From: Bacteroidales bacterium | GTDB taxonomy: Bacteria; Bacteroidota; Bacteroidia; Bacteroidales; F082 | NCBI GenBank assembly: GCA_017616735.1 | Contig: JAFZXP010000009.1 | Span: 55,114 to 119,113, forward strand | Length of the DNA: 64,000 nt | Reading direction: 5' to 3' | Part shown: positions 1-40,328 of the stretch, piece by piece | How the letters are laid out: every line of letters starts with the position of its first letter | Numbering within the stretch: the stretch's first letter is position 1 | Translations under genes and position numbers: made by a program | Notes under the pieces: model-generated | The model's input: only the letters and a program-made list of their open reading frames with translations | Database searches by the model: none | What the model was told of the DNA's origin: nothing

Positions 1-135
1 GCTGCTGTATATCCTATATACAAATGGAGTAAACATATTAATAATAAAGCCAAGGCAATTGAGGTTTCACCAGTTGTTGGCATTGCTACAAATACTGACA
101 ATATATATGGCATAAGTATAACTGCTAATTTTTAA
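1..135 (+). CDS. C-terminal end of an outer-membrane beta-barrel-like protein (partial)
   Basis: An open frame runs from the window edge to a TAA at 133-135 and gives the last 44 residues of a protein. The chain ends in alternating hydrophobic residues and a terminal phenylalanine (YGISITANF), the pattern of the C-terminal beta-signal read by the BAM machinery. It stops two bases before the first CHAT gene, so it is probably part of the same transcription unit. The N-terminus is outside the window and the family cannot be named. Confidence 0.55.
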   Translation, partial: AAVYPIYKWSKHINNKAKAIEVSPVVGIATNTDNIYGISITANF

Positions 136-137
136 TC

Positions 138-2396
138 ATGAAGCGAATTGTTTTTACCATATTGTGTGTTGTATTTGCCGCAAGTTTATTCTCACAAAAC
201 AGAAGGCATCTTGTTGTTGATTATGCTAACGACTCGGTTATATATTACCGAGATAAAATTATAAATAGAATAGCCAACAACGACACGGTAGACATTAGTG
301 AAGATCTGAACAAGATAGTAGCATTATATTATGATTATTATTCTTGGGGAAGTAAAGAATTTAACGAAAGCATTTTATGGTGTGCCATGATGAGTCTGGA
401 ATGGGGTGACAATTGGGGAGCATACAGATTGATGAAAGGCAGTTGTGAACTTTTTGCGCAATACGGTAATGGCCCTTTCGAAGGAAGAGATACAATCAAC
501 GAAATTTTATATCTAGATTTACAATCCAGACTTCATTACAATGGTAACGCATTTAAACCAGCTATAAAGTATTCCAGACGCTCATCCGACTTAAAACGTT
601 TGTATTTTGGAGAAGACAGTGAGGTTTATTTGAAATCGCTGCTCGATTTGTCGAAGCTTTATACCGAGAGGCTCAACCACAAGATGTCGCAGCGGTATCA
701 CAATTTGGGATATCAGTCTTATGTTAAGATGATTAAGCGTGAGTTCTGCGAGATGAGCGAGTCGGAACGAACTTTATACTGGGAGTCGGTTAAAGAATAT
801 ATCGATAAAACCATTCTGATCGCACACAAGTCGGCGGGCATGCGCGAAGGCAAAAATTTAGACTCCTTGGCATCGGCGGCATACAACGCGTTGTTGCTTT
901 CGAAAGGACTTCTGCTTAATACAACAATTGGATTTGAAAACTACATAATAGAAAGCGGTAACACCGAAGCCATATTTAATCTGATGTACAGGAAGTCGTT
1001 GGTCGATAAGGAAGCGCCTCAGCAAGTCATCGATTCAATCGACTATGTGATTTTGAATGCATTGAAAGCCAACGGACAAGGTTTCGATATACCGCATCTT
1101 TCTATCGGATGGAAAAATGTCAGCCGAAAATTGGCGGATGACGATTTGGCGATTGAGTTTTACAAAACAACCGAAGGGGAATATGGTGCTATACTTGTCA
1201 AACGCAATTGGAAGGCGCCGAAAATCATTCCGATGAAAGAGTTTATTTATAATGGGTTTTTGAATGGGGTCCCGTTGGATAAAGTCTTAAGAAACTGTTC
1301 GTTTGAAAGCTTCTCGAAAGATGATGCCCAGCAGTTGTGGAAACTCAGCCAAGCTGTTTGGACCGACAAAATAATCAAGTATTTTCCAACTACCGAAACA
1401 GGACGTGTTTATTTCGCGGCTGACGGAGAGTTGCTTGTGACTGGCATAGAGTATCTGCCTTTTATCAGGCCTCGGTATGATGGCGAAAAGGTTGTTGCAT
1501 ATTATTCCATATCTGATCTGTTTAATGTTTACCGCCTCACATCAACTCGTGAGCTGGCAACCGACAAGTCGTTGTTAACAGATTACAAAGCAGCCGTTTA
1601 TGGAGGCCTGGCATACAATATGGGTACTGAAGAGTTGATTGCTGACAACAAAAAATACTCGCAAAACGGTGAGGAATCTCTGCTTTATGCCTACAACAGC
1701 CACGAAAGGTCTTTGCGTGAAGCAGCCGAGCCGATACCAGAACTTGACGGCACCAGAAGGGAAGCTGATAGCATTATCGGCATAATCAGCCAATCAGAGC
1801 AACATGAATACGACATCAAACCTTATCTTGGAAAAGACGGCACTGAGGCTTCGTTTAAGGCGTTAAGTGGTAATAATCAAAGACTTATACATGTAGGAAC
1901 ACATGGCTTTTTCTACGATGCGACCGATACGATACAAGCACAATCGCTGCAATTGGGCGACAATCCTCTGTCGCATTGTGGATTGCTATTTGCAGGAGCC
2001 AACAACAAATGGTATGGCGATTATATTCCAAAAGGAGTTGACGATGGTTTTTTGACGGCTTTGGAGATATCATCGCTCGATTTACGCGGACTTGACTTGG
2101 TTGTGCTTAGCGCCTGCGAAACCGGCAAGGGCTACATAACCAGCGACGGCGTGTTCGGTTTGCAGCGAGGTTTCAAAATGGCCAGTGCCAACGCCATTCT
2201 GATGTCGCTGTGGAAGGTGGACGACGATGCCACATGTATGTTGATGACAGAGTTTTATAGAAACTGGATAGGCTGCCAAATGACCAAACATGATGCCCTT
2301 GAGGTTGCCAAACAGACTGTCCGTTCGCATAAAGAAAAAGGGTGGGACAAACCCAAATACTGGGCTGCATTTATTTTACTTGACGGATTGGATTAA
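138..2396 (+). CDS. Exported CHAT-domain (caspase-like) protease
   Basis: This 752-residue protein starts with a type I signal peptide (hydrophobic core about residues 4-18, ending LFSQ). A helical middle of probable degenerate TPR type follows, and then a C-terminal CHAT domain. The caspase-like dyad is visible: H589 in HVGTHGFF and C660 in VVLSACETGKG. CHAT proteins are usually cytoplasmic cysteine proteases, many of them in programmed-death or conflict systems (separase/gasdermin-protease relatives). An exported one is unusual. It is the first complete gene of a cluster whose spacings are 11 bases or overlaps, and a second CHAT gene lies at 6410. The substrate is unknown; the adjacent membrane and secreted proteins are candidates. 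Confidence 0.85.
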   Translation: MKRIVFTILCVVFAASLFSQNRRHLVVDYANDSVIYYRDKIINRIANNDTVDISEDLNKIVALYYDYYSWGSKEFNESILWCAMMSLEWGDNWGAYRLMKGSCELFAQYGNGPFEGRDTINEILYLDLQSRLHYNGNAFKPAIKYSRRSSDLKRLYFGEDSEVYLKSLLDLSKLYTERLNHKMSQRYHNLGYQSYVKMIKREFCEMSESERTLYWESVKEYIDKTILIAHKSAGMREGKNLDSLASAAYNALLLSKGLLLNTTIGFENYIIESGNTEAIFNLMYRKSLVDKEAPQQVIDSIDYVILNALKANGQGFDIPHLSIGWKNVSRKLADDDLAIEFYKTTEGEYGAILVKRNWKAPKIIPMKEFIYNGFLNGVPLDKVLRNCSFESFSKDDAQQLWKLSQAVWTDKIIKYFPTTETGRVYFAADGELLVTGIEYLPFIRPRYDGEKVVAYYSISDLFNVYRLTSTRELATDKSLLTDYKAAVYGGLAYNMGTEELIADNKKYSQNGEESLLYAYNSHERSLREAAEPIPELDGTRREADSIIGIISQSEQHEYDIKPYLGKDGTEASFKALSGNNQRLIHVGTHGFFYDATDTIQAQSLQLGDNPLSHCGLLFAGANNKWYGDYIPKGVDDGFLTALEISSLDLRGLDLVVLSACETGKGYITSDGVFGLQRGFKMASANAILMSLWKVDDDATCMLMTEFYRNWIGCQMTKHDALEVAKQTVRSHKEKGWDKPKYWAAFILLDGLD

Positions 2397-2407
2397 AATA
2401 TCAAACG

Positions 2408-3901
2408 ATGGAAAAAGAAATATTGATAATCGGCACACATCCCATAAGGGATAGTATCATTAAGCAATACGAAGGGGCAGGCTGCCGTGTCGAATTGCAT
2501 GCCAGTTTCGGCGATGTGTGCCGTGGCAAGGAATATCATGAGTTGTGTGTGGTTACCGACGAGGCGGTTGGCGACAAGGATGTGTTGGAATCGCTGGCGC
2601 TGATAGCCGCAGATTATCCGGCGACAGCTGAAGGCGTCGCTAAGCCGGTATGCCATCTGCTGCTGCACAACAATATCACCCTCAACTTGATGCGGATGGT
2701 CGATTTGTACCCCGAGATTCAGCATAAGTTTGAGCTTTACGCCTTTACCATCGAAGACCAATGGGCCAAGAATATTTTGTTCACCCATGCTCTGGATAGG
2801 GAAAAAATTGATGAAAAATCGAACAAAACGGTGCATTTGGTGATAGCCGGCTATAGCGAGTTGAGCGAAAGCCTGGCCATTCACACGGCTTTGACGATGC
2901 ATTTCCCAAACTACGAGCGAAACCACACTTTGCGCACTCGCATTACAATAGTTGACCGTAACATTTCAACGCCCAAAAATGCGTTTACACAACGCCACGC
3001 TCAACTTTTCGACAACTCATATTATCGCTCGCTCGACCTTTCCCAGCGTTGCGTCACCCAATATCACGAGCCTCGGTATGCCGGCAGTCGCGAGGATTTT
3101 GTTGATGTGGAATGGGAATTTGTAGAAGCCGATTTTTTCGACTCGGTTCTGCAGCAAAAAATAGAGATGTGGGCTGAGAGTGACGACCAATTGCTAACCA
3201 TAGCGCTCTGTGATTCCAATGCCGATGTCAATTTTGACCGTGCTTTCACCCTGCCTGATGCAGTGTATAGCAACGAGGTGCCTGTGTTTGTGAATCTAAA
3301 GCAAGCCGGGTTGCTCGACGAGGTTAGAAAAAACGGAAAGTTCAAGAATCTGGTTCCAGTTGGGATGTATGACTGCGGTTACGACATCAGTTTGCCGCTG
3401 CTTCAGATGGCTAAACGTTTGAACTATTGCTACAACTGCAGCTACGGCAAGAAAGAAATTCCAACTGACATGCCTGCTGCTGAGGTTGAAAAGATGTGGA
3501 GTGGTGTAGGTTCATTCAGCATCCGATATTCAAACATATACAATGTGATGACTATCTCCACCAAGATGCGTATTCTTGGTCACAAAGAAGGCGACTGGGA
3601 CAAATATTATGCTTTGACCAAGGCCGAAATAGAACAAATAGCCGCTGTGGAACACAACCGTTGGAGTGTGGAACGCCTGATTATGGGATTCCGCCCGCCG
3701 ACTGATACCGAACGTGACGAGATAAAACATAACATCGACGACTTGAAAGACAGATACAAAAAACAGAAAGTACACTACGATCTCTGCTCATACCGCGAAC
3801 TAAAGGAAGACAAGACCGGACAAAACGTGCAAGTCTACGATTACGACCTCGTCGCATGTATACCGCTGATTGCCCAATCATATAAAGAGACAAAAAGATG
3901 A
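2408..3901 (+). CDS. Rossmann-fold (TrkA-N-like) plus RyR-domain protein
   Basis: This 497-residue soluble protein has no signal peptide. The N-terminus (IIGTHPIRDSI) and a second segment near residue 145 (HLVIAGYSELSESLAI) look like nucleotide-binding Rossmann units. The C-terminus (about residues 415-490) matches the RyR domain pattern: an AAVEHNRWSVERLIMGF helix, then a later KVHYDLCSYREL segment. Prokaryotic RyR domains are known in predicted signalling and conflict operons, with an inferred ligand-binding role. It overlaps the following FHA-trypsin gene by four bases, so co-translation is likely. Inference: it is the cytoplasmic sensor or regulator of the protease cluster. Confidence 0.7.
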   Translation: MEKEILIIGTHPIRDSIIKQYEGAGCRVELHASFGDVCRGKEYHELCVVTDEAVGDKDVLESLALIAADYPATAEGVAKPVCHLLLHNNITLNLMRMVDLYPEIQHKFELYAFTIEDQWAKNILFTHALDREKIDEKSNKTVHLVIAGYSELSESLAIHTALTMHFPNYERNHTLRTRITIVDRNISTPKNAFTQRHAQLFDNSYYRSLDLSQRCVTQYHEPRYAGSREDFVDVEWEFVEADFFDSVLQQKIEMWAESDDQLLTIALCDSNADVNFDRAFTLPDAVYSNEVPVFVNLKQAGLLDEVRKNGKFKNLVPVGMYDCGYDISLPLLQMAKRLNYCYNCSYGKKEIPTDMPAAEVEKMWSGVGSFSIRYSNIYNVMTISTKMRILGHKEGDWDKYYALTKAEIEQIAAVEHNRWSVERLIMGFRPPTDTERDEIKHNIDDLKDRYKKQKVHYDLCSYRELKEDKTGQNVQVYDYDLVACIPLIAQSYKETKR

Positions 3902-5214
3902 AAAAATATTATTCTTTGCAAAGTGCCGGGCGTCAGTTGCTCAATGCCGACAACCCGTTGCGTATCGGACAGACCGACTACTGCGAGATGAAACTGCCCA
4001 ACAGCAGCCAGTATGAAGATGCCGAAATAGCTGTGATTGAGCCTTGCGGCGACAATAGTGGCTGGAAGTTGGTCAGATTATCGCCTTACAAAGAACACGA
4101 GGTCCGCGTTAACGGTGTTGCTATAGATTATGTGCATTTCCTGCAAGACGGCGACCGTATAGCCATCGAAGGACAAAAACACGATATACTGTTTAGGATA
4201 CACTACGATGGATTATACACGTCAAATGGCATAGTGATGGCCGCCAAAAACAAAGCCAGCCGCCCGCTGATGATGTGGATGTTGCTGCTGACAGCGGTGA
4301 TTGCGGTGTTTGCAATCCGTTATTATTACACCCGACCAATAACTCCTGCTATGATGGACAAGGCCAGACAGTCGGTTTATCAGATTAGGGTTGACAGTGT
4401 CAAATTACTTTCATACAACGAAGGCAAGACAACGGTTTTGGGCGCTTGTGCCTGGAATACTGCCGGCTTGGCTTTCCTGACTGCCGACTCGCTGTTTGTA
4501 ACCGCCCGTCATTGCATCGAGCCCTGGCTTAATGTAAACGATACCGTGAGTATGGATATGGATAGTGGAACAATGCCACTTCCGGTACGATGGGCCTTGA
4601 TGGCCGAGACCGCTAACCAATGCGACACCGGTGAAAAGCTCGAAGTGGTCAGCGTTTGCTCGGTTTACCAGATGCAGCCGGATTACATGTTTTTGTTCAG
4701 AGTTGAGTCGTCAGACTTTGTGATGGACAAATCGCGCGACCAAATTGTGGAATACGGCGACTACAACCACCAGTATTTATGGCGTAGCATTTCATGGCGT
4801 CCGCGGCGTGTCGACATGATGATGGGCGACATTGCTTTTATGCGTGTAACCTCCGACATGCCTCTTAACCCCAAAGGCACTATCCGTCTGGCTGGTAAAA
4901 AGGAGTTCAGCCGCCTGACCGGACTGTCGAAAACCGTCATCTCAGCTATGGGTTGCCCCAAGGTGGGTGTGGGCAAAGCCGAGATGGAGTATTCGGAAGG
5001 CGTGCTCAAAAAGAAGATACAGCTTGACGCTGACGGCTATCCTGAATATGTGATTTCGCATGACGGTGGCATATTGCAAGGCTACTCGGGCAGTCCGGTG
5101 TTGACAAAGATTGGATTCAAATGGTATGCTATTGGAGTGGTTTCGGTGACCGACAAATATGTGAAAACCAGGTTTTATGCCGTACCAGTAACCGAAATTG
5201 AAAAACAAAGATGA
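3898..5214 (+). CDS. FHA domain - TM - trypsin-like serine protease
   Basis: This 438-residue protein has three parts. Residues 1-105 look like an FHA fold (LRIGQTDYCEMKLP near the N-terminus, then RVNGVAI and LQDGDRIAI), which would bind phosphothreonine peptides in the cytoplasm. A single TM helix at about 120-142 is preceded by positive charges (KNKASR), which places the rest in the periplasm. The remainder is a chymotrypsin-fold protease with a complete triad: H205 (TARHC), D311 (GDIAF) and S397 (GYSGSPV). Overlaps of four bases on both sides couple it to the RyR and pseudokinase genes. This one-chain coupling of an inside phospho-reader to an outside protease suggests signal-controlled proteolysis. 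Confidence 0.85.
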   Translation: MKKYYSLQSAGRQLLNADNPLRIGQTDYCEMKLPNSSQYEDAEIAVIEPCGDNSGWKLVRLSPYKEHEVRVNGVAIDYVHFLQDGDRIAIEGQKHDILFRIHYDGLYTSNGIVMAAKNKASRPLMMWMLLLTAVIAVFAIRYYYTRPITPAMMDKARQSVYQIRVDSVKLLSYNEGKTTVLGACAWNTAGLAFLTADSLFVTARHCIEPWLNVNDTVSMDMDSGTMPLPVRWALMAETANQCDTGEKLEVVSVCSVYQMQPDYMFLFRVESSDFVMDKSRDQIVEYGDYNHQYLWRSISWRPRRVDMMMGDIAFMRVTSDMPLNPKGTIRLAGKKEFSRLTGLSKTVISAMGCPKVGVGKAEMEYSEGVLKKKIQLDADGYPEYVISHDGGILQGYSGSPVLTKIGFKWYAIGVVSVTDKYVKTRFYAVPVTEIEKQR

Positions 5215-6413
5215 TGGACCACGTATTATATGCAGCAGACCTTGCCGGACATTGCAACGAACTGACGGCATGGCGAATTATCAAGCAGGTGAGCGGACAA
5301 CTGATGTCGCATAGTACGATGCCGGTAAGTCCTTTCAATATTAAAATTAACGAAGACGGCAGTTTTGCTTTGGTTGAAAACGCAGAAGCTGTGGTCGATA
5401 CTTTCATGGCTCCGGAGGCAACCAAGGCCGCCCCGACCGAAGCCGGTCAGGTGTGGTCGTTGGCAGCATCGGTGTTCTATGCGGTAATGGGCTGCCAGGT
5501 GATGAACGGTCGGGGCGGCCGCGCTCAACATGCCGCTTCAAAGGTTCCTTATATGCGCAGCGAGTTGCCACAGTTGAGCGAGTTGGTGCAAAAATGCCTC
5601 AACTACCAGCCCGGGCAACGTCCGACCATGCTTGAGGTGAACCAGACAGCTGCTGCGCAATTGCAGCGTTGCGAGGACTTGGTCAGACGCGGTCCTAAAT
5701 TGCGGCAAAACAGCGTCTCACGAAACATGTCGGTGCCAAGTGGTGACAATTGTCAGTTCTGGCCCGAGGCTTTTGTGTTGATGTTGTTGTTTTTCTCGCT
5801 GGGTTTTACAACCATGGCTCAAACATCGGGCGACAATGAACTGCAGCGGTTGATAAGCGTGGTCTGCTCAATGCGTCAATCCGATGAGCAGTCGCGTGAA
5901 AAAGCATGGAACGCCGCTGCACATATTCTGGAAAACGACAAACAATGGACCATAATGGACGAGGTGACGCCTCATCCCAACGAATGCCGGATTACAGACC
6001 GCAGCCTGCAATGGTTTGCGCTCAACCGCATGCTGTCGCGGCAGATGGGCTATGAGGTGAATCAGGTTAGGGGTGATTTCAACAATGGCGAAGACCCGGA
6101 TTTCAACTATTCGCTTATCGAACGCAGTGTCAAAGCCAACGCCACGGTAAGTTACGAACTCAAATCGCGTGAAGGTGAGCAGATTTTTGTGGTGATACCT
6201 TATGATGCCCAAGCCGCCTCTTTAGAAACTGCGCTGTATCGTGGCGATACTTTGCTGGCCCAGGGAATCCGACATGATGACGGCAACATCTACCTTATTG
6301 CCGACCGTGACAGTCACGTTGTCATGAACGATGTCCTGAAGCTGGTGATAACCAACAAAAGCTCCGCAAACACAGCCATAGTAATAATCAACCACAACAC
6401 CCGCATCAAATGA
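5211..6413 (+). CDS. Degenerate protein-kinase C-lobe - TM - periplasmic domain
   Basis: Residues 1-155 resemble the C-lobe of a Ser/Thr kinase: an APE motif at 67-69, VWSLAASVFYAVMG in place of the DVWSLG helix, and a conserved R137 in QKCLNYQPGQRPT. The N-lobe with the Gly-rich loop and Lys is absent. The catalytic HRD Asp and the DFG Asp are not seen (VEN stands where DFG is expected), so it is very probably inactive. A TM helix at about 184-203 leads to a roughly 200-residue exported region of unknown fold, rich in beta-strand near the end. Four-base overlaps on both sides tie it to the FHA-protease and the second CHAT gene. A scaffold role is inferred. Confidence 0.7.
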   Translation: MMDHVLYAADLAGHCNELTAWRIIKQVSGQLMSHSTMPVSPFNIKINEDGSFALVENAEAVVDTFMAPEATKAAPTEAGQVWSLAASVFYAVMGCQVMNGRGGRAQHAASKVPYMRSELPQLSELVQKCLNYQPGQRPTMLEVNQTAAAQLQRCEDLVRRGPKLRQNSVSRNMSVPSGDNCQFWPEAFVLMLLFFSLGFTTMAQTSGDNELQRLISVVCSMRQSDEQSREKAWNAAAHILENDKQWTIMDEVTPHPNECRITDRSLQWFALNRMLSRQMGYEVNQVRGDFNNGEDPDFNYSLIERSVKANATVSYELKSREGEQIFVVIPYDAQAASLETALYRGDTLLAQGIRHDDGNIYLIADRDSHVVMNDVLKLVITNKSSANTAIVIINHNTRIK

Positions 6414-8545
6414 CAAGACGACTCTCTTTGATATTGCTTTTGTTGGTGCTGCAACCGCTTATGATTGTGGCTCAGGACACCGACAAGCTTTTTGCCGATG
6501 GTAACAACTGTTATGTCAACAGCGGCAACAAGGCTGAGCTGAAGCGTATCATCCAAGAGTATATGGATGCATTAAAAGCCAATCCCGATGAAAGCCTGCA
6601 AAAGCTTCAGCTTTACAAGCTTTTGGGTGACTACTATTATCTTAATTCTGACGAAGATTCAGAATCGTATGCACGGGCGGAGTATTATTTTAAGCAAAGT
6701 TTGGCATTTGCCGAAGATCCGGCGCATTCCAGCTACCAGACCGTCTATCACGACAGGTTTGTGCTGCATCATGAGCTTGCGCAACTTTATTACAAGCAGA
6801 AGTTGTATTCTAAAGCATTTATGGAGATGCAAACAGCTTTCATGCTAGCTTCAAATTATCTTTCACCCTACGATGACCTTGTGCTTGACTTTGCCGGCCA
6901 ACTGGCAATATGCCGTGCCCGCGTGGCCGCGAGCGAAGATGATTTCAAAGAGGCTCTGGATTTGATTGATGATGTGATTGAAAACTATAGGAATGTTGAT
7001 TCTGAACGCTATGGCGAGGCACTGCGTAAAAAAGCCAAAATATTGATGCTTCGGCAGGAATCGGGTTTTGGTTCAGCGGGTGATGCTCTCGACTATTACA
7101 AGCAATACTATCAGATCAAAAAAGCCGATGTACTGAAACGTTTTGCGTGTATGAATGCCGACGACCGGGAGCATTGTTGGATGCTCATGCGTGCTTTTGT
7201 CACTGATTGTTACCGCACCGAGGACACAGACCCGGGATTCTTATACGACGTGACATTATTTGTCAAAGCTTTTCTGCTTGAGTACCAGCTAAATATCAAG
7301 CCTCAACTGTATACGTGGAAAACAATCCGCAACAAGCTTGGTCCGAGCGATTGCGCTATTGAGTTTGTCCAATACGAAAAGTATGGTGCTAAGCAAATGG
7401 GCGCCTTGGTCCTGAAACACCACGGCCAGCCTTGTTTCGTAAAGCTGGGTAGCGTTGACAGTATGATAAACAGCCCTTTGCTTCAAGGTGGAACCGTCGA
7501 AACAGCCATCACGGTTGACAGTCGTCAACTCAAAGACAATCTTTATTCAGATACCGCAATATTTGCAAAAGTGTGGACTCCTGAGTTATTGCAAACTATT
7601 GGCGCAGACACCAAGACCATTTATTTTGCCGCCGACGGCATATTTCACCAGATGGCCATAGAGTATATGCTTACGGGCTATGACACACACCGCCTTACAA
7701 GTACCCGTCAGTTGGCAATGGCGCCAAGTGAAAAGAAAGACCACAATGTCTTAATTGTTGGCGATGTCGATTACAATAATATCGGTGGTGACGATGTCGG
7801 CAGCGTTTATGAGAATGACACTGTAGCTTATCAGTATCTGAAATCTATGAATGTATGGGTTAGCTCACTGCCAGGCACCAAAAATGAAATCGACTCTATT
7901 GTGGTTATGCTTGAAAAGCAAAACGCCACTGTCGAAACTGTCAGCGGCGCCAATGCAACCGAACCCTATGTCACACATATGCTCGGCAAAAGTCAGATAA
8001 TACATATTGCCACACACGGATATTACATCGGGATGATGCCCGCAGGTACCGATTTGCATCCGGCCACCTACGACGAATCGCTTTCGCAAAACGGTCTGAT
8101 TCTGGCTGGGGCCAATACTACCTTGCAAGCCGATGATTTCAACACCTCGCTTTATGACGGAGTGCTGTCGGCACGCGAGCTGTCACAACTCGATTTGTCG
8201 GGTACCGAGCTGGTAGTGCTTTCGGCTTGCCATTCGGGCCAAGGCTACCTTACAGCCGACGGAATTTACGGTATGCAACGCGGACTCAAAAAAGCTGGTG
8301 TCAAAGCCATGATCATAAGCTTGTGGAGTGTCGATGACAAAGCTACAGCCTACCTTATGCAGGCGTTTTACTCTTATCTGAAAACCAACGATATACACAC
8401 AGCCTTTAAACTGGCCCGACAAAAGTTAATGCAGATGCCCGACAATGGTGGAAGGCATTTCGACAAGTCACGTCTGACACGCCGCAAAACAGCCAACCAT
8501 TTCGACCGCCCTCAGTATTACGACGCTTTCATTTTAATCGAATAA
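6410..8545 (+). CDS. Exported TPR-CHAT (caspase-like) protease
   Basis: This 711-residue paralogue of the CHAT protein at 138 has an N-terminal signal peptide (about residues 1-21, ending MIVAQ). TPR-like helical repeats occupy about residues 55-230, and the CHAT domain is C-terminal. The dyad is present: H536 in HIATHGYY and C607 in VVLSACHSGQG. The C-terminal helix with DKATAYLMQAFY matches the other copy (DDATCMLMTEFY). The start codon overlaps the upstream stop by four bases. Two exported CHAT proteases in one operon suggest a cascade or two specificities. No pro-domain cleavage site can be assigned by eye. Confidence 0.85.
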   Translation: MTRRLSLILLLLVLQPLMIVAQDTDKLFADGNNCYVNSGNKAELKRIIQEYMDALKANPDESLQKLQLYKLLGDYYYLNSDEDSESYARAEYYFKQSLAFAEDPAHSSYQTVYHDRFVLHHELAQLYYKQKLYSKAFMEMQTAFMLASNYLSPYDDLVLDFAGQLAICRARVAASEDDFKEALDLIDDVIENYRNVDSERYGEALRKKAKILMLRQESGFGSAGDALDYYKQYYQIKKADVLKRFACMNADDREHCWMLMRAFVTDCYRTEDTDPGFLYDVTLFVKAFLLEYQLNIKPQLYTWKTIRNKLGPSDCAIEFVQYEKYGAKQMGALVLKHHGQPCFVKLGSVDSMINSPLLQGGTVETAITVDSRQLKDNLYSDTAIFAKVWTPELLQTIGADTKTIYFAADGIFHQMAIEYMLTGYDTHRLTSTRQLAMAPSEKKDHNVLIVGDVDYNNIGGDDVGSVYENDTVAYQYLKSMNVWVSSLPGTKNEIDSIVVMLEKQNATVETVSGANATEPYVTHMLGKSQIIHIATHGYYIGMMPAGTDLHPATYDESLSQNGLILAGANTTLQADDFNTSLYDGVLSARELSQLDLSGTELVVLSACHSGQGYLTADGIYGMQRGLKKAGVKAMIISLWSVDDKATAYLMQAFYSYLKTNDIHTAFKLARQKLMQMPDNGGRHFDKSRLTRRKTANHFDRPQYYDAFILIE

Positions 8546-8559
8546 ATACAAATATCATC

Positions 8560-9681
8560 ATGAAAAAAATCTTATCACTATTAACTATCGTATTTGCAGT
8601 GTTGAGCTGTTTTGCTCAAAAAGGACCGATTGTCAGAGACCAAATACAGATGGAAGTCAACACAATAACTGTTGACGAGACCAGACGCATCAACGATTAT
8701 ATCTCAAATCAGAAAAGATCACGTTTTTTGCTCGAAACATGGGGCAAAAACGTTTTGACTTCGGCTGCCAACGGAGTCTCCAATTTGTTGATTACCGAGG
8801 CAATTAAACTTACAAGCATCCGCAAGACCAAAAAGGCCAACTGGAGTAAAATGATTGAAAAAGAATGCAATTATGTTGACAATATAAGTTTTGTCAACAG
8901 CTTGACCGATTTTTATTCCAAAGGCTCTTACGATGGTCCGCTTGATCCGGCCGACATCAATTTCAATGGTTTTACCATCATGGCTCAAAACAATGGCAGG
9001 GAGTTGATGAGATTTTATTCGCATGTAGCCACCGACGAAGCCGGACTTGACAAGATATTCAATCAAAGCAAGTTCGACTTGGTTATCGATTCGTTGTTTT
9101 ACCATCCTTTCAACTGTCATATCCCGAATTTGCGAGCCAACAACATAGTCGTTGACCAAGACAAGCAATATGGCAGAAATATCAGTTTCTCATTTGACGA
9201 ACGAAACAATCTGATGCTCAACATCCGCTTTACCATAATCGCTTCATGGTATAACGAGGCCGTAATGTTGGCCAAGGATGTCGAATTGGGATCATTTAAC
9301 ATTCAGATTCCTATTAGTCAGGAGCGGTTGACCGACAGTGTGTTTGTTTACAAAAGGGGAGTGTCGGCCGACACTTTATCGTTGTCGGGTGACTGTTTCA
9401 TAGTGCCGCGTTCATATATGCCGCTTTCGGGAGGCGTGGCTCATTGGGGCACCGGCCAGTACAATGTCATGATTGAATTTTCGGAGCATTGCGGCATCAC
9501 GGCCGAAGTTAGAGACAATTGGAAACATGATTACCGTCAGCTTAAACGCATGAGTAAAAACAAGGAAACAGGCCAATATTTGCTCAATATCTGCAAACAA
9601 AACGGCAACATTGCCATCAAAGCTGTAATTGAATCCACTTCCAAGTCAGCATTGTCTGATCTTGATAAAAAAGCAAGATGA
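8560..9681 (+). CDS. Secreted protein of unknown function, last gene of the protease cluster
   Basis: This 373-residue protein begins with a signal sequence (MKKILSLLTIVFAVLSCFAQ). The Cys in VLSC could be read as a weak lipobox, but cleavage after FAQ is more typical. I recognise no family. The middle is rich in predicted beta-strand, with a run of aromatic residues, and there are no obvious catalytic motifs. It lies 14 bases after the second CHAT gene and ends seven bases before the convergent mnmA, so it closes the operon. Its position makes it a candidate substrate, effector or inhibitor of the exported proteases; this is inference only. Confidence 0.6.
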   Translation: MKKILSLLTIVFAVLSCFAQKGPIVRDQIQMEVNTITVDETRRINDYISNQKRSRFLLETWGKNVLTSAANGVSNLLITEAIKLTSIRKTKKANWSKMIEKECNYVDNISFVNSLTDFYSKGSYDGPLDPADINFNGFTIMAQNNGRELMRFYSHVATDEAGLDKIFNQSKFDLVIDSLFYHPFNCHIPNLRANNIVVDQDKQYGRNISFSFDERNNLMLNIRFTIIASWYNEAVMLAKDVELGSFNIQIPISQERLTDSVFVYKRGVSADTLSLSGDCFIVPRSYMPLSGGVAHWGTGQYNVMIEFSEHCGITAEVRDNWKHDYRQLKRMSKNKETGQYLLNICKQNGNIAIKAVIESTSKSALSDLDKKAR

Positions 9682-9687
9682 TGAGTT

Positions 9688-10749
9688 TTACTCGATAACT
9701 CCGCTTCCTAGCACCACAGGTTCGGTGGCATGATAAATAGTGCCGAACTGGCCGCTGGCGACGCCGGAAATCATCACGTCGGAGTGAATGACTAAACCGC
9801 GGTCGGTGAGGCTGAGAGTGCCGGTGCGGAATTCGGGCTGGTGACGGATTTTGTAGCGCACTTTTTCGCCTTCAGCGAACTTGATGACAGGGTTCATAGC
9901 CTGAACGTCGACTAGCTCAATAGTGTTGGTGTATTGCGCCTCAGGGTCGTAGCCTTGCGACACGTAAACGATATTGTTTTCGGTATCTTTCTTTACCACA
10001 AACCACGGTCCGCCTCCAAGTCCTAAACCCTTGCGTTGACCGATGGTGTGGAACCAGAATCCCTTGTGACGGCCGAGTTTTTTGCCGGTCTCGAGCTCAA
10101 TGATGTCGCCTTCTTTTTCGCCAACATATTCGCGGATGTAGTCGTTGTAGTTAATCTTTCCCAAGAAGCAAATGCCCTGAGAATCATGGCGTTGAGCGCT
10201 TGGAAGGCCGTATTTTTCAGCCAACTGGCGCACCTCGCTCTTCGGAATTGCGCCCACAGGGAACATAGCCTTTTTCAGCTGCTGATAAGTGATTCGAGCC
10301 AAGAAGTCGGTCTGGTCTTTGAAGGTGTCGACAGCAGTGCCAAGCCATGCAATGCCTTGAGCGTCAATCCATTGCTGAGCGTAATGGCCGGTGGCGATGC
10401 GGTCAAACTGATAGCCGGCCTTTTCCTCGAAAGCACCGAACTTGATAAAGCGGTTGCACATCACATCGGGGTTGGGAGTCAAGCCCTTGCGCACCGAGTC
10501 CATGGTGTAGGCAGCCACTCGGTCGTAATACTCCTTCTGCAGGTCGACGATATCGAACTTGCAGCCGTATTTCTTAGCGATATAAGATGTTATCTCGATG
10601 TCTTCCTCCGACGGGCAGTCCATCAAATCTTCCTTGCCCTCGAGCCCAATTTTGATGTAAAATATATGAGGATCAATGCCTTGCTCCTTCAAGAGAGGCA
10701 CTATCACCGAGCTGTCAACTCCACCCGATACTAACGCTGCAACATTCAT
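9688..10749 (-). CDS. mnmA: tRNA-specific 2-thiouridylase MnmA
   Basis: MnmA transfers sulfur to U34 of tRNA-Lys, -Glu and -Gln in an ATP-dependent reaction. The 353-residue protein has the N-terminal PP-loop (SGGVDSS). One catalytic Cys lies in NPDVMCNRFIKF and the second in GICFLGKINY, and the central GHYAQ segment is present. The length is typical. It lies on the minus strand just downstream of xth (six bases), so the two are probably co-transcribed, and it converges on the protease cluster. A tRNA-Gln gene, one of its substrates, occurs about 8.8 kb away. Confidence 0.95.
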   Translation of the reverse strand: MNVAALVSGGVDSSVIVPLLKEQGIDPHIFYIKIGLEGKEDLMDCPSEEDIEITSYIAKKYGCKFDIVDLQKEYYDRVAAYTMDSVRKGLTPNPDVMCNRFIKFGAFEEKAGYQFDRIATGHYAQQWIDAQGIAWLGTAVDTFKDQTDFLARITYQQLKKAMFPVGAIPKSEVRQLAEKYGLPSAQRHDSQGICFLGKINYNDYIREYVGEKEGDIIELETGKKLGRHKGFWFHTIGQRKGLGLGGGPWFVVKKDTENNIVYVSQGYDPEAQYTNTIELVDVQAMNPVIKFAEGEKVRYKIRHQPEFRTGTLSLTDRGLVIHSDVMISGVASGQFGTIYHATEPVVLGSGVIE

Positions 10750-23254: not shown

Positions 23255-23764
23255 ATGAAAAACCTCCTAACCTTATTAATTATGTGTCTCTGCATTTTCA
23301 CTGGCTGCAACGCCCAAACCAAGGTTGATAATTCAGTATCAGGCAATTTACAGCTTGACAAATACCTTGGCGATTGGTACGAGATTGCCCGTTTCGACCA
23401 TAAATTTGAGCGTGGAATTCAATTCTGCAAAGCAAATTACTCATTGCGTGAAGACGGCAAGGTGGCTGTTTTGAACACTGGTATTAAAGATGGCAAACCA
23501 AGCGAAGCTAAAGGTAAGGCTAAGTTTACTGATAATCCAAGAATTTTGAGAGTTTCGTTCTTTGGACCATTCTATGGTGACTACCGCATAATGCTCTTAG
23601 ACGAAGATTATCAATGGGTTTTGGTTGGTGGTAGTGATGAAAGTTATCTGTGGATTTTGGCAAGAACGCCAAAGATTTCAGATGAAGTGAAGGAGACGAT
23701 TTTATTTGAAGCTACAAGAAGAGGATATGATGTCGGGAAGTTGATTTGGGTGGAGCAGGAATAA
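23255..23764 (+). CDS. blc: Bacterial lipocalin (Blc-like) lipoprotein, copy 1
   Basis: This 169-residue protein has a lipoprotein signal with the lipobox-like FTGC (Cys about 18). The lipocalin signature GDWYEIARFDHKFERG is followed by an eight-stranded barrel sequence and the late YLWILARTP motif. Blc proteins bind lipids or lysophospholipids at the outer membrane. A second copy at 39751 differs at about 11 of 169 residues, and a short relic lies at 27391. Copy 1 is separated from its usual partner (the 259-residue TM protein) by inserted defence-like genes. Confidence 0.9.
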   Translation: MKNLLTLLIMCLCIFTGCNAQTKVDNSVSGNLQLDKYLGDWYEIARFDHKFERGIQFCKANYSLREDGKVAVLNTGIKDGKPSEAKGKAKFTDNPRILRVSFFGPFYGDYRIMLLDEDYQWVLVGGSDESYLWILARTPKISDEVKETILFEATRRGYDVGKLIWVEQE

Positions 23765-23803: not shown

Positions 23804-24994
23804 ATGTCATCTATCAGAATTAAAAATATAGGTCCAATTAAAGATACTGGTAATGTGTCTTTGACCCATGTTATACTTATCATTGGTGAGCAAAGCTCTG
23901 GTAAAAGCACTTTTATGAAGATATTGTGCTATTGCCGTTGGTTTGAAAAGAAGGTAATGATAGGTGACTATAAAAATCTGGAATATTTCTCTATAGGCGA
24001 TTTTTTGCAGCCGCTAATCTCATTCCACAGATTGACAGCCGCTTATTTCAGCGATTCTTCTCTTATCGAGTATCATGGTGAGGCCTTAAATATTGTTATA
24101 AAGGGTTTAAAGAGCATTAGTCTCAGTGTTACTGAACAGTTCGAAAAAGTTCGCCACAATACTAAGCTAAGCTATCTGCCTGCTGAGCGAAATCTTCTGT
24201 CTGTTATACCTGAGCTCGATGCTAAATACCGTTCATCCACGTTCGACGTGATGTTCAACTCGGTTATCGAATTCAATGAGGCCAACGTAATGTTCAGCGA
24301 GAAGAAACCACTCAAGCTCTCCATCCTCAAAGGCATGGAATACTATCATGAAGGTCATGCCGACTATGTGCGCTTCGACGAACATCATGCACCGATAACG
24401 CTTGAATATATGTCGAGTGGTGTGCAATCCACTGTGCCGGTGTCACTCATGTCCAAATACCTTTGTGAGGTAACGGGAGCACCTTCAAAGCGTACACCAC
24501 AGACTGCAAAGGGTGGCTTCAGTTCCGATTTTAGCAGTGATTTTGAGCGCGACAGGCTGAGTTACTACAATTATCCACAGCTTTTTGTTGAGGAGCCCGA
24601 ACAACATCTGTTCCCGCAAGCTCAAGCTAATTTGATTGAGGAAATACTTTTCAATCAGTTGCAAGCTTTTCAGAAAACAAATCAAATGGGCTATGTCTTT
24701 ATGACAACCCATAGCCCTTATGTATTGTCTGTTATAAATATTTTCCTCTTGGCTGGCAAACTCAAGGGAATGGGCACCCTCAGCGATAAGGTGGAAAAAA
24801 TTACCAACGTAGCCATCGCACCCAACGACATGTCAATCTATTCTATTGAAAACGGCAAGTTTGTCTCCCGTATGGATAGCGACACAGGCATGATTGGCGG
24901 CAACTATCTCGATTCGGTTTCAGAGGTGATGTCAGGCAGGTTCAATGAGCTCTATCGGTTGTATGCAAGCGAGTATCTTAAATTAAACCAGTAG
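23804..24994 (+). CDS. OLD/ABC-type AAA ATPase of a two-gene module, copy 1
   Basis: This 396-residue ATPase has Walker A GEQSSGKST (28-36) and a YLPAERN motif. An ABC-like signature SSGVQST is followed by Walker B LFVEEPE (E263-E264) and an H-loop TTHSPY (H303). There is no C-terminal TOPRIM domain, so it is not a full OLD nuclease. It is followed after three bases by a PD-(D/E)XK-like gene, and the same arrangement recurs at 28404-30226. ATPases of this class drive several phage-defence systems (for example Septu and PARIS), but the partner here differs from theirs. The function is inferred to be conflict-related. Confidence 0.8.
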   Translation: MSSIRIKNIGPIKDTGNVSLTHVILIIGEQSSGKSTFMKILCYCRWFEKKVMIGDYKNLEYFSIGDFLQPLISFHRLTAAYFSDSSLIEYHGEALNIVIKGLKSISLSVTEQFEKVRHNTKLSYLPAERNLLSVIPELDAKYRSSTFDVMFNSVIEFNEANVMFSEKKPLKLSILKGMEYYHEGHADYVRFDEHHAPITLEYMSSGVQSTVPVSLMSKYLCEVTGAPSKRTPQTAKGGFSSDFSSDFERDRLSYYNYPQLFVEEPEQHLFPQAQANLIEEILFNQLQAFQKTNQMGYVFMTTHSPYVLSVINIFLLAGKLKGMGTLSDKVEKITNVAIAPNDMSIYSIENGKFVSRMDSDTGMIGGNYLDSVSEVMSGRFNELYRLYASEYLKLNQ

Positions 24995-24997
24995 TTT

Positions 24998-25522
24998 ATG
25001 GCATCGCGCAATCAGATAATAAATACCCTTAGGACTGCTTATGCACACGTTGACAACTTCCTTTTGCATTCGTCAAAAGGCGAGCATGTGATAGATGTGC
25101 CAACATTTTCCACCGATAATGCTGTTCCTGGTTTTGATGTGGAGAATCCGACTAACAAGATGTTTTCTTTGCTCCAGATTGACAAAAAGATGATGACGTC
25201 GAATATAGATAACATAGGTCAATGCGATGGCGCCATTATTAGTGACGACGAGATTAGTTTCTTGGAATTCAAAACCAATGCAACCACTAATAAATTGAAT
25301 AAGGAATGTGGTAAAGCAGAGTCTCAGATATTCATGACCGCCATGCGGATGAATTGGGCATTACGCAGGGTAAATCAGGATTTCATGTCGTTAGCAAAGA
25401 TTGACGGTTATGTTTGCTTTAATACATACCCTAAAGGCGGAGCTAACTATCAGAATCGTCAAATACGATTCCTTCAAAGAACAGGAATAGAGCTGTTCTA
25501 TAGTAACGAAAAGACGTTATAA
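24998..25522 (+). CDS. PD-(D/E)XK-like nuclease partner of the ATPase, copy 1
   Basis: This 174-residue protein carries a D-x12-E-x-K arrangement: D77 in QCDGAI, then E90 and K92 in FLEFKTNA. A following helix contains KAESQI, the position where PD-(D/E)XK enzymes often place a Gln. The protein at 29630 has the same spacing (D96, E109, K111) and a shared C-terminal FL-RTG-L-F pattern. I know no named family. The ATPase neighbour and active-site geometry suggest a nuclease effector. Confidence 0.65.
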   Translation: MASRNQIINTLRTAYAHVDNFLLHSSKGEHVIDVPTFSTDNAVPGFDVENPTNKMFSLLQIDKKMMTSNIDNIGQCDGAIISDDEISFLEFKTNATTNKLNKECGKAESQIFMTAMRMNWALRRVNQDFMSLAKIDGYVCFNTYPKGGANYQNRQIRFLQRTGIELFYSNEKTL

Positions 25523-27434: not shown

Positions 27435-27528
27435 GAAGTTAACTTTAACAGCGTGGATGAAGCGATGAGGTGTTTGAAGGCTGTCACGCTGTGATGTGGT
27501 TTGATAGATTATCAGGAGGTGAATGGAA

Positions 27529-28308
27529 ATGAGTAAGGATTCTGGAAAGAGCTTTTGGGAAGGTTTTGGAGGAACAATCCTTATTACTATAGTTACAACT
27601 GTGCTAACAACCGTTGTGACATTGTTTGTAACCAAGGCTATTCACTTTATCTCTCCCGAAGAGAACAGGGTTATAATTAGTGATACTTTGCGAATTGTGG
27701 AGGCTGGTTCTTCTCAGAATAGGGATGATTCCCTTATGTATAATGCGATAACAGAATTGAATAGAACAATACGGGAAATCGTTCCGAAGAACAATAACAT
27801 AAGGATTGTTTTACCTGAATCTGTGATTCCATCAAGTAATAGATTTGTGGCGGAGGAAGTTTCTTCATCTGTAAATACAATCGATAATAGTACGTTAATT
27901 ACCTCCGATCAGGGGAAAGTAATTGCTGGTTCATCTTCTGAAAATAGAGTTGTTGATAAAAAAGGCTTTTATAAAAAAGGATATAGTATAAGTGATGGTG
28001 GCTCTTTCTTTGAATTGAAGTCTATTCCAAAGGCCGATGATCATCCATTGGTTTTTGAAATCAGATTGCTACAATCATCTGATTTTTTAAGCCATATATA
28101 TCTGACAATTTGCGCTACAAATGAAAAAGGCGAGTTATATCAATACTTTGGTCAGACATATGATGTCAGGGATGGCCTGAATAGAATACAGATAGCGAAC
28201 AATCTTCGGAAAGGGAAGAACCGTGTAGAGATTGGCGTTTTCATGAAGTCTGATGAGGGAAAGGATTTCCCAACGTTTTATAGAAATATTTTTACTATAA
28301 CAAAGTAG
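27529..28308 (+). CDS. Single-TM anchored protein of unknown function, copy 1
   Basis: This protein of about 259 residues has one TM helix at about 17-38 (ILITIVTTVLTTVVTLFV). A polar Ser/Asn-rich linker follows, then a C-terminal beta-rich domain of about 110 residues (GFYKKGYSISDGGSFFEL onwards). A strong AGGAGGT site at 27514-27520 lies eight bases before the ATG at 27529 and only two before the ATG at 27523, so the later start is preferred. The paralogue at 40329 has the same site. About 30-35 residues differ between copies, mostly in the linker. The family is not recognised. Confidence 0.7.
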   Translation: MSKDSGKSFWEGFGGTILITIVTTVLTTVVTLFVTKAIHFISPEENRVIISDTLRIVEAGSSQNRDDSLMYNAITELNRTIREIVPKNNNIRIVLPESVIPSSNRFVAEEVSSSVNTIDNSTLITSDQGKVIAGSSSENRVVDKKGFYKKGYSISDGGSFFELKSIPKADDHPLVFEIRLLQSSDFLSHIYLTICATNEKGELYQYFGQTYDVRDGLNRIQIANNLRKGKNRVEIGVFMKSDEGKDFPTFYRNIFTITK

Positions 28309-28403: not shown

Positions 28404-29618
28404 ATGAGGAAGTTGACAATTAAGAATTTTGGCCCTGTCTTAAATGCGGAGTTGGAACTCAAGGCCGTTAACCTGCTTATTGGTGAGCAGTCTATCGGTA
28501 AGAGTACAATTGCGAAGTTGATAACCATCATGACGGATATCTTCTCATTATGTATGATTATTCGTACTGGTCATATTGGATGGATTGATCAATTGAAGAA
28601 TTATGGATTGGATATCTATAGTAAGGATGATTATAGTGTTCAGTATGAGTGGGTTGAGAAAGATCTGCACCTCATCCTTACAATAACTAAGGAGCATGTA
28701 CAAACTTCTTTTACTCAGGGGACAACAATCATAACTGATCCAGATACAATCTCAAAGCTGCTTTTCGGGTTAAAACCTATTTATCATCAAGAGCAGTATG
28801 TGAATCAAATAAAAGCAGCGGTGGAAAATACTGATGGAAAAGAACCCAAAGAGTTAATATCTTCACTACGACAGTTAGTTTTTAACTCCATCTATATCCC
28901 TGCAGAAAGGAGTTTTTTCTCTTTCTTCAACAAAGCACTGCCGGCTCTTAACCTTGTTAGGGAATCAATTCCTCAGAATCTTCTCCGATTCGCCCTTGAC
29001 TATCAAAACGCAAAGTCTGCATATAGCAAGTACGATTCTACACTCTTGAATGTTTCGTACGAATACGATGGCTCTGACGATTATTTCACTGATCATACAA
29101 GTAGTCAAAGATACCATCTATCCTATGCATCATCAGGAATTCAGTCAACAATGCCACTATTGTTGGTACTCCAGTATGCAGTCAATAAAAGGGAGTATTC
29201 TTCTTTTGTAATCGAGGAACCTGAGACGAACCTGTTTCCTGATAAGCAGGTCGCACTTTTAAGACATATTCTAAAGACGGTCAACAGCGATGGACGAACT
29301 TTGACGATAACTACTCATAGTCCGTATCTGCTCTCTGCCCTGAATAATTCCCTGTTTGCCGGTTTGATGTTGAAGCAATATGGTGAGGGAATAAAAGAAG
29401 ATATTTCTAAAGTCTTTGATAAAGATTGTTTCCTGACACCTGAAGAGTGCTCAGTCTATTCGTTAGGCGAATCCGTGAATGGTGAAGGCGTGTATTGCAA
29501 GTCAGTTGTTGATCTTGAGACGGGCATGATTGATAGCAATGCTTTGGATGGTGTATCTTTGTTGTTAAGTGAAGAATTCAACAAACTGGAAGATGTACTC
29601 CTGGCTAACAATAAGTAG
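28404..29618 (+). CDS. OLD/ABC-type AAA ATPase of a two-gene module, copy 2
   Basis: This 404-residue paralogue of the ATPase at 23804 has Walker A GEQSIGKST (27-35), YIPAERS, the signature SSGIQST, Walker B FVIEEPE and the H-loop TTHSPYLLS. The C-terminal extension again contains a CSVYSLGE / TGMIDSN pattern matching the first copy's MSIYSIEN / TGMIGGN. Overall divergence between the copies is high away from the motifs, so this is not a recent tandem duplication. It is followed after 11 bases by its own PD-(D/E)XK-like partner. Confidence 0.8.
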   Translation: MRKLTIKNFGPVLNAELELKAVNLLIGEQSIGKSTIAKLITIMTDIFSLCMIIRTGHIGWIDQLKNYGLDIYSKDDYSVQYEWVEKDLHLILTITKEHVQTSFTQGTTIITDPDTISKLLFGLKPIYHQEQYVNQIKAAVENTDGKEPKELISSLRQLVFNSIYIPAERSFFSFFNKALPALNLVRESIPQNLLRFALDYQNAKSAYSKYDSTLLNVSYEYDGSDDYFTDHTSSQRYHLSYASSGIQSTMPLLLVLQYAVNKREYSSFVIEEPETNLFPDKQVALLRHILKTVNSDGRTLTITTHSPYLLSALNNSLFAGLMLKQYGEGIKEDISKVFDKDCFLTPEECSVYSLGESVNGEGVYCKSVVDLETGMIDSNALDGVSLLLSEEFNKLEDVLLANNK

Positions 29619-29629
29619 AACAGAGGGTT

Positions 29630-30226
29630 ATGGATTTTGAGGCGATAAACCGTTTGCGACTAAAAGAGGCCTTCGGTGAATTTGAATTGTTCCAGCGCAT
29701 ATCTAAGGATGGAGATTGGTTGGATAAACTGTTTGAATGTGATACCAGGGGACAGTTGTTCGTATATGATGATGCTGAAGCGGGTCATGTAGTTTATGTG
29801 AATGACACGAAAGGTCTTGGACGTGACAAGGTTTTCGGATTGGTGAATAAAAACCATAAAGATGTCTTCTTGTGGCATATTGATGGTGTAATATATGAGA
29901 AGACCTCCAAATGCGATTGTGCCGTCATCACTACCGATGAGATGGAGTTCATTGAGTTTAAGACCAATGCGTCTAACAGTTCACAAGAAGCCATCTTCGA
30001 TAACTATCATAAGGCAAGTGAGCAGTTGCAGAAAATAGTAAAGGATGTCAAGGAACGTTGTTCTAAAGTGGGTGTGACACTTACTTCCGTCATCCCTGTC
30101 GAAGCCCATGCGGTGTTCAACCCTACGGTTCCGTCAGACAGTGCAATGAAGAAGAACATCTCCGCTAAGTTCCTTGTCCGGACCGGGGTGAAACTCAGTT
30201 TTGATAATATAAAGGAACTGAAGTAA
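29630..30226 (+). CDS. PD-(D/E)XK-like nuclease partner of the ATPase, copy 2
   Basis: This 198-residue protein has D96 in KCDCAVI and E109/K111 in FIEFKTNA, with the same D-x12-E-x-K spacing as copy 1. A KASEQLQ helix follows, and a C-terminal FLVRTGVKLSFD matches the first copy's ending. The N-terminal 80 residues differ from copy 1 (two short sheets with several Asp). The conserved core and variable N-terminus suggest an effector with different recognition. The function is inferred. Confidence 0.65.
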   Translation: MDFEAINRLRLKEAFGEFELFQRISKDGDWLDKLFECDTRGQLFVYDDAEAGHVVYVNDTKGLGRDKVFGLVNKNHKDVFLWHIDGVIYEKTSKCDCAVITTDEMEFIEFKTNASNSSQEAIFDNYHKASEQLQKIVKDVKERCSKVGVTLTSVIPVEAHAVFNPTVPSDSAMKKNISAKFLVRTGVKLSFDNIKELK

Positions 30227-39750: not shown

Positions 39751-40260
39751 ATGAAAAAATTATTAACCCTATTGATTATGTGCTTCTGCTTTTTCACTGG
39801 CTGCAAAGCCCAGACCAAGGTAGACAATTCAGTCTCTGGCGATTTGAATCTTGACAAATATCTTGGCACTTGGTATGAGATAGCCCGCTTTGACCATAAA
39901 TTTGAGCGTGGCATCCAATTCTGCAAAGCAAATTATTCTTTGCGTGAAGACGGCAAAGTTGCGGTTTTGAACACTGGCATCAAAGACGGCAAACCGAGTG
40001 AAGCCAGAGGCAAAGCAAAGTTTACTGATACTCCAAGAATTCTGAGAGTTTCGTTCTTTGGTCCATTCTATGGTGACTATCGCATAATGCTCTTAGACGA
40101 AGATTATCAATGGGTTTTAGTTGGCGGCAGTGATGAAAGTTATTTGTGGATATTAGCAAGAACGCCGAAAATTTCAGATGAAGTGAAGGAGACGATTTTG
40201 AATGAGGTAACGAGAAGAGGATATGATGTTGGGAAGTTGATTTGGGTGGAGCAGGAATAA
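39751..40260 (+). CDS. blc: Bacterial lipocalin (Blc-like) lipoprotein, copy 2
   Basis: This 169-residue near-duplicate of the lipocalin at 23255 has the signature GTWYEIARFDHKFERG and lipobox-like FTGC. Most differences fall in the signal peptide and the first mature residues, the rest of the barrel being almost identical. It is followed after about 70 bases by the TM protein at 40329, which appears to be the ancestral arrangement. The two genes form a unit that has been copied within the locus. Confidence 0.9.
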   Translation: MKKLLTLLIMCFCFFTGCKAQTKVDNSVSGDLNLDKYLGTWYEIARFDHKFERGIQFCKANYSLREDGKVAVLNTGIKDGKPSEARGKAKFTDTPRILRVSFFGPFYGDYRIMLLDEDYQWVLVGGSDESYLWILARTPKISDEVKETILNEVTRRGYDVGKLIWVEQE

Positions 40261-40328
40261 AACAGCGTGGATGATGAAGGCTGTCACGTTGTGATGTGGT
40301 TTGATAGATTGTCGGGAGGTGAATGGAA

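Follow-up and report, generated by a model that had tools for sequence, protein, structure and literature searches.

The window examined in the present study is a 64,000-nucleotide stretch of a Bacteroidales bacterium genome (GTDB family F082; assembly GCA_017616735.1, contig JAFZXP010000009.1, positions 55,114 to 119,113; G000:C52:55114-119113), analysed together with the contig stretch upstream of it (L005). Its first 9,681 bases hold six complete genes, coding for two CHAT proteases, a protein with a RyR-like domain, a protein joining a degenerate FHA domain to a trypsin-like protease across one transmembrane (TM) segment, a kinase C-lobe fusion and a further exported-looking protein. They include a core conserved across Bacteroidales and form the 3′ end of a larger island that also encodes TIR proteins and that may be a signalling system spanning the inner membrane. 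The features are:

1..135, forward strand: 3′ end of a 151-amino-acid exported-looking protein (the rest lies in L005), part of a repeat unit of small exported proteins and a CHAT protease
138..2396, forward strand: CHAT-C, predicted exported CHAT protease of 752 amino acids with H589/C660; PF12770, E-value 4.6e-43; signal-like N-terminus
2408..3901, forward strand: RyR protein (R) of 497 amino acids without a TM segment; C-terminal RyR-like domain with H416, W419, H456 and D478
3898..5214, forward strand: degenerate FHA domain, TM segment (residues 124-142) and trypsin-like protease, 438 amino acids, triad H205, D311, S397; Trypsin_2, E-value 9.3e-5, under the cut-off
5211..6413, forward strand: kinase C-lobe (about residues 1-180), hydrophobic stretch (187-205) and predicted exported domain, 400 amino acids
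6410..8545, forward strand: CHAT-D, predicted exported CHAT protease of 711 amino acids with H536/C607; PF12770, E-value 1.5e-42; adjoins the conserved core
8560..9681, forward strand: C6, exported-looking protein of 373 amino acids with a hydrophobic start; recurs beside CHAT genes in cassettes
9688..10749, reverse strand: right border gene, which we take to be mnmA, outside the system; in congeners whose site is near-empty, it adjoins an EF-G-like gene

A preliminary description, made from the letters of the window alone, had placed the six complete genes correctly; the four-base overlaps it reported are present at three of the five junctions (3898/3901, 5211/5214 and 6410/6413) and absent from the other two. 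The gene end at the start of the window, which it took for that of a barrel gene, belongs to a protein with a signal-like start, and a barrel is supported neither for this protein nor for a 156-amino-acid homologue with two more hydrophobic segments. C6 gave no Pfam match under E 0.02 and none in PADLOC or NCBIfam.

A unit ending with the window was rejected, since the gene array continues into the upstream contig. The island starts ~18 kb upstream of the window and comprises 28,105 bases and ~25 genes, all on one strand, between a left border gene that is presumably EF-G and the mnmA-like gene on the right. Its upstream part holds a pair that we assume to be HTH and HipA-like genes (L005:1699-3513, the first island genes after the EF-G-like gene), a TIR-TM protein, small exported-looking proteins and CHAT-A. 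An MscS-type protein (PF00924, 6.7e-9), a small RyR-type protein, a TIR-TM-FGE protein, further exported-looking proteins and CHAT-B make up the middle, and the six window genes, CHAT-C to C6, the remainder. One unit of three genes, coding in order for two exported proteins (225-246 and 151-157 amino acids) and a CHAT, occurs three times, at L005:4916-8299, at L005:14748-18134 and from L005:18842 to window position 2396.

The order RyR, FHA-TM-trypsin and kinase C-lobe is conserved across Bacteroidales. A pattern scan of the genome collection with the FHA-trypsin profile returned at least 27 loci, seven of which are contigs already seen in congeners. The RyR gene lies directly upstream of the FHA-trypsin gene in all 24 loci with that side present (L089 has no upstream sequence) and the gene immediately following FHA-trypsin codes for the kinase part in 24 of 25 (the L075 kinase gene was not resolved by the open reading frame picker, and L072, L076 and L078 are short downstream). 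A CHAT gene is found in 22/22 cassette loci with enough sequence; in G075, G115 and G068 it flanks the core on the opposite side. Conservation limited to close relatives had been named beforehand as an outcome that would count against the system; FHA-trypsin identity across cassettes is 29-53%, so the neighbourhood is kept beyond such relatives. Record titles of the carriers name Prevotella (including Prevotella sp. tf2-5), Muribaculaceae, Bacteroidaceae, Paludibacteraceae and others.

The complete catalytic triad attributed to the trypsin part is confirmed, as H205, D311 and S397 are invariant in 25/25 aligned homologues (a 25-row alignment from which L072, L075 and L089 were left out), with Trypsin_2 matching the window protein at 23.6 bits, under its cut-off of 27.6. 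A Pfam scan of the same protein made no FHA call, and this domain was identified by alignment to canonical-looking FHA proteins in three other loci (L090 from Odoribacter laneus, L091 and L092). In FHA domains the GR and SRRH motifs provide the phosphothreonine contacts. These reader residues (Arg of GR, His of SxxH) are kept in L090-L092 but absent from all 22 aligned cassette proteins. A hydrophobic stretch separates FHA and trypsin in 25/25 homologues (L078 has an extra weak one), and the FHA side of it is the more positive in 20, equal in three and less positive in two.

L090-L092 share with the cassette a homologous FHA-TM-trypsin protein with the triad kept, matched by the FHA-trypsin profile over the trypsin part in L090 (7e-18) and L091 (4e-17) and over the FHA part in L092 (8e-11). 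Unlike the cassette, they have neighbouring kinases with an N-lobe, and the stretches fetched showed neither a RyR nor a CHAT gene. These loci (L090:6167-18494, L091:6861-15801 and L092:832-7266) combine canonical-looking FHA-TM-trypsin with Ser/Thr kinases, joined in two of them (L090 and L092) by a gene that we take to be PP2C-like; possibly they are relatives of the cassette ancestor.

The 400-amino-acid protein had been described as a pseudokinase lacking HRD and DFG. The missing motifs stand, while the protein as a whole proves to be a C-lobe joined via a hydrophobic stretch to an exported domain of ~207 amino acids; two genes have been fused, as relatives carry the two parts separately. 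The kinase-like part matches just the end of PF00069 (1.3e-4, under the cut-off) and has no N-lobe, HRD Asp or DFG Asp, and hence is not a protein kinase by these features. The C-lobe stands alone in 20 of the 22 cassettes in the tree. That the kinase part is always a C-lobe was rejected, because L076 and L078 have in its position an intact kinase with Gly loop, Lys, catalytic Asp and DxG (PF00069 at 3.1e-32 in L078). This intact pair nests among the C-lobe-only rows with weak support, and grouping all 20 C-lobe-only rows together is not rejected (approximately unbiased test, p-AU 0.175); a single N-lobe loss may be compatible with the tree, and so may several. The fusion occurs in the window, in G075 and in ten other loci (L080-L089), the two parts being apart in the remaining loci where both are seen. 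Since this requires at least five changes on the tree, the fusion was not used as a clade mark. The fused proteins are predicted to place their two parts on opposite sides of one membrane. With phospho-binding and kinase residues both lost, the idea of an FHA and kinase pair acting by phosphorylation is not supported, and phosphorylation is probably not the signal here.

Both window CHATs score far above the PF12770 cut-off of 24 (148.2 and 146.4 bits) and, as previously described, combine signal-like N-termini with the catalytic His and Cys, which are invariant across all four island CHATs. CHAT-C, the third of the four, is 58% identical to L005:6062-8299 and 60% to L005:15954-18134. Counting every M, V or L as a possible start, signal-like N-termini were found in 12/12 CHATs from our own and the congener loci, in 13/14 remaining cassette CHATs, and among the controls in one of 23 RyR and one of 25 FHA-trypsin proteins; 12 of 48 other window open reading frames passed under a slightly different rule (first start only). 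From these N-termini, and from the one TM segment between FHA and trypsin, the CHAT and trypsin parts are predicted to face the periplasm, as had been proposed. The envelope-level picture is partly supported in that it survives, but its contrast with CHAT modules that are normally cytoplasmic does not: of 20 CHATs sampled from other Bacteroidota genomes (all start codons of the first 90 codons considered), 16 have export-like N-termini, in a sample that came from the best-scoring loci and is therefore skewed upwards in score. Of the four misses, L144 and L147 have a hydrophobic start without the K/R required by the signal rule. Exported CHATs are thus ordinary in the phylum, and export was rejected as the surprise in itself.

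The island occupies a slot, between the EF-G-like gene and mnmA, whose content varies among relatives. Out of 94 genomes with mnmA, 24 congener loci were examined, 20 picked chiefly as the closer relatives and four obtained earlier. Seven (L200, L205-L209 and L211) have no EF-G-like gene in the stretch and were excluded from the empty or filled count. The slot is near-empty in 10/24, with 52 to 814 bases between the two border genes and one 184-amino-acid gene in the longer gaps. It is filled in 7/24, where G139, G124 and G074 carry an exported-exported-TIR-MscS-RyR arrangement, G049 and G076 TIR proteins with a 2-TM/RCK/RyR protein, and G141 and G135 TIR and exported proteins in which no RyR was seen (in G074 and G076 the mnmA side alone is in view). 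Among the eight filled slots including our own, our profiles find a TIR gene in 8/8 and a RyR-type gene in 6/8. The gene array is an exchangeable island, and its slot is filled in some relatives and near-empty in others. In seven of the other eight RyR-carrying congeners mnmA is on a different contig from the RyR protein, and in the eighth, G138, mnmA was not found, so that their cassettes probably lie outside this slot.

Distribution is patchy in general. The full-length RyR protein is present in 9/173 same-family genomes and FHA-trypsin in 8/173, with one further weak match, while an even draw of the order gave FHA-trypsin in 4/393 genomes, two of the four weak (own genome included in each count). 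This patchiness, the near-empty slots, and the company of TIR genes and of genes nearby that match our own profiles and that we take to be SIR2-like and STAND-WD40-like count against envelope-stress or niche regulation in place of immunity, in which the periplasmic proteases would serve surface protein turnover or gut competition and TIR and RyR would be metabolic NAD sensors. In its favour, CHAT is present in 101/198 Bacteroidota genomes, often exported, and hence not tied to such islands; many exported-looking island proteins have no Pfam family; and 12 of 27 carrier record titles name a ruminant gut sample. We consider this explanation unlikely.

The window RyR protein is kin to 2-TM/RCK/RyR-type proteins, minus their N-terminal TM part. 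As Pfam makes no RyR call at its C-terminus, the RyR half of an earlier Rossmann-RyR assignment is tentative and depends on a profile bridge, in which the window C-terminus matches the 2-TM/RCK/RyR family at 5.1e-26 and that family matches canonical RyR at 5.2e-7 (best of 30 shuffles 0.033). A bridge protein, G079, is above the PF02026 cut-off (32.5 versus 27.4 bits), and the bridge family is of RCK type, all nine members examined having two or more hydrophobic stretches at the N-terminus. Residues H416, W419, H456 and D478 are invariant in 23/23 RyR proteins. A PDB profile search with the RyR protein returned two chance-level rows, and plasmid and phage searches returned no match. Separately, L062 encodes a stand-alone 94-amino-acid canonical RyR protein (L062:12931-13215; PF02026, 5.6e-36) whose gene overlaps a 2-TM/RCK/RyR-type gene (L062:10880-12934) by four bases.

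The small RyR-type protein of the island has a C-terminal domain related to that of the cassette RyR protein (E 1.1e-19), with the H456 equivalent a His in 20/22 members, Tyr in our own genome and Ser in G095. An MscS gene lies directly upstream of it in 15/15 loci fetched for this protein, four of which (L180-L183) are near-copies, and the pair occurs in seven more loci (G000, G120, G094, G095, G075, L079 and G045); two further small-RyR matches, a broken one at G099 and a copy at G075:C1, stand outside the 15-locus count. Cassettes of the RyR-FHA-kinase type and MscS-RyR pairs can each occur without the other, and G094 has a RyR gene without FHA-trypsin, as expected if the protease cassette and the TIR/RyR/MscS module were independent occupants of a shared hot spot without cross-talk. 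Against such independence, all 24 evaluable loci have the RyR protein within the protease cassette, this protein and the MscS partner have related C-terminal domains, and TIR is present in 9/9 own and congener loci; separate modules therefore seem distinctly unlikely.

Both island TIR proteins (TIR_2, PF13676, at 2e-13 and 1.7e-11) have a TM segment, and the second has a C-terminal FGE-type domain (PF03781, 1.3e-16). They carry a Glu, presumably catalytic, in the motifs DDWVRREV and DDWVREEI. All four CHAT matches and both TIR_2 matches of the own genome, which is 80% complete, fall inside the island. A TIR_2 match lies in the fetched locus of all nine genomes (our own and eight congeners) with a full-length RyR protein, and 16 of the 32 TIR_2 matches in these genomes fall in the RyR locus. 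Exported-looking proteins starting AQTQQGYVKTKGR or similar stand in tandem beside TIR genes in L046-L047 and L056-L061, up to six in G068, and a set that we take to be of type I restriction-modification kind lies beside the cassette of G095 (L055:11986-20000).

The TM-bearing TIR proteins, one with an FGE-type domain that is a plausible periplasmic sensor, also suit an outside-in alarm, in which exported proteins (TPR-like, CHAT, the 207-amino-acid domain, trypsin) would sense phage adsorption or envelope damage, and periplasmic proteolysis would switch on TIR/RyR and kill by NAD loss or channel opening. The same may be said of five smaller, protease-free loci of exported proteins, TIR, MscS and RyR (L172, L175, L177, L178 and L186; L184 is alike). 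The RyR protein, however, adjoins protease genes in every evaluable cassette, so that control of the protease by RyR fits better than the reverse, and we hold this alarm to be rather unlikely.

The reading we favour, tentatively and at rather less than an even chance, is that of a membrane-spanning signalling island in which TIR writes an NAD-derived signal, RyR reads it, and a relay fires periplasmic trypsin and then CHAT. Upon infection or stress, cytoplasmic TIR domains, mostly TM-anchored, would convert NAD+ to an ADP-ribose (ADPR)-type signal, which the soluble RyR protein would bind in its H/W/H/D pocket. The RyR protein would then dock on the degenerate FHA and kinase C-lobe, by now docking surfaces only, which would be tied through the inner membrane to the periplasmic trypsin and the 207-amino-acid domain. 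The ensuing change would free or activate the trypsin, which would activate the exported CHATs, and these would attack envelope proteins; the same signal would also act through the second island RyR-type protein, which would open the MscS pore encoded beside it. The infected cell would probably stop growing or die. The cascade, its direction and any role in defence are what we infer. Gating by an intracellular signal, suggested in the preliminary description, is plausible, with a TIR-made ADPR signal read by RyR as the candidate. More generally, it is possible, if on balance doubtful, that this is a new kind of TIR immunity, in which RyR proteins receive TIR-made ADPR signals and switch interchangeable membrane outputs, namely a partner MscS pore, the 2-TM/RCK part of the RyR protein itself, or a trypsin/CHAT relay through the inner membrane with the decayed kinase and FHA for docking.

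Several observations weigh against this signalling relay. PF02026 has no match at the C-terminus of the window RyR protein with E up to 1; its sole row for this protein, at residues 96-154 (E 0.075), is chance-level and is the single row among 23 RyR-protein members scanned. Direct RyR support exists for the 2-TM/RCK/RyR family only, with the window domain joined through it, and the window domain set directly against canonical RyR gives 0.035, a value that the best shuffle (0.019) and an unrelated MscS profile (0.0067) both improve on. A TIR or SIR2-like profile match is present in 7/16 other RyR-bearing cassettes (L079-L082 and L086-L088), a count limited by several short contigs, and TIR in 7/15 stretches around the MscS-RyR pair. 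Export and TM calls are from hydropathy rules made for this analysis and not from a trained predictor. In PADLOC the core proteins have weak generic matches only (RT-Protease, LmuA and PD-T4-6, best 4.7e-4).

No description of a system of this layout was found among the open-licence literature matches listed. Rousset et al. are said to have described, in Science in 2025, a Thoeris type linking TIR to a caspase-like protease. The island likewise has TIR genes beside caspase-clan (CHAT) proteases, with an NAD-derived signal proposed; it differs in that its receiver would be a separate RyR protein, its proteases are predicted to lie beyond the inner membrane, and a trypsin, a degenerate FHA and a kinase C-lobe stand in between. 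The curated cut-off for NCBIfam Thoeris type III is not reached (28.3 and 36.5 bits versus 220), PADLOC ThsB1 matches the TIR part only (1.1e-6), and no SLOG or macro Pfam match was found among the 20 of ~25 island proteins scanned. NTP-dependent ternary and STAND conflict systems have multi-gene loci whose trypsin, caspase, TIR, FGS, FHA and kinase domains overlap with the domain set here (PMC7159879, PMC8195603), but the same 20 proteins have no MoxR or vWA match, which sets the island apart from the ternary systems; the term RyR is absent from both papers, and CHAT and signal peptide from PMC7159879. In nuclease-protease defence pairs, according to PMC12799240, a trypsin-like protease similarly activates a partner protein; unlike that one, the island trypsin is predicted to be periplasmic and tied to an FHA-like domain, and no MBL-type nuclease match was found among those 20 proteins. 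Phage RyDEP proteins, which contain a RyR domain, are anti-defence glycosidases and sponges that bind ligand through H75, W78, H100 and D117 (PMC13232231). The H-x-x-W, H and D of these are in register with H416, W419, H456 and D478 of the island RyR-type domain. Unlike in RyDEP as described there, the island domains are C-terminal to Rossmann- or RCK-like parts and encoded with TIRs and effectors, and would thus be signal receivers.

Further into the window, two similar two-gene units at 23804-25522 and 28404-30226, each with an ATPase-like protein of 396-404 amino acids followed by one of 174-198 amino acids, are possibly a duplicated defence pair. Two other families are duplicated there, one of 169 amino acids (23255-23764 and 39751-40260) and one of 261 amino acids (27523-28308 and 40323-41108).

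The record of one carrier, Prevotella sp. tf2-5 (L084), has no metagenome label, so the strain is presumably cultured and the question would be testable. If the relay exists as proposed, bacteria would have an immune pathway that reaches across the inner membrane to cut proteins in the envelope, and in which RyR domains receive ADPR-type signals. The phage RyR proteins described in 2026 would in that case be host components that phages captured or imitated, and the link between cyclic ADPR (cADPR) and RyR discussed for animals would have an ancient role. Seen across living relatives, the cassette also illustrates how an FHA protein and its partner kinase could persist after phosphorylation is lost.

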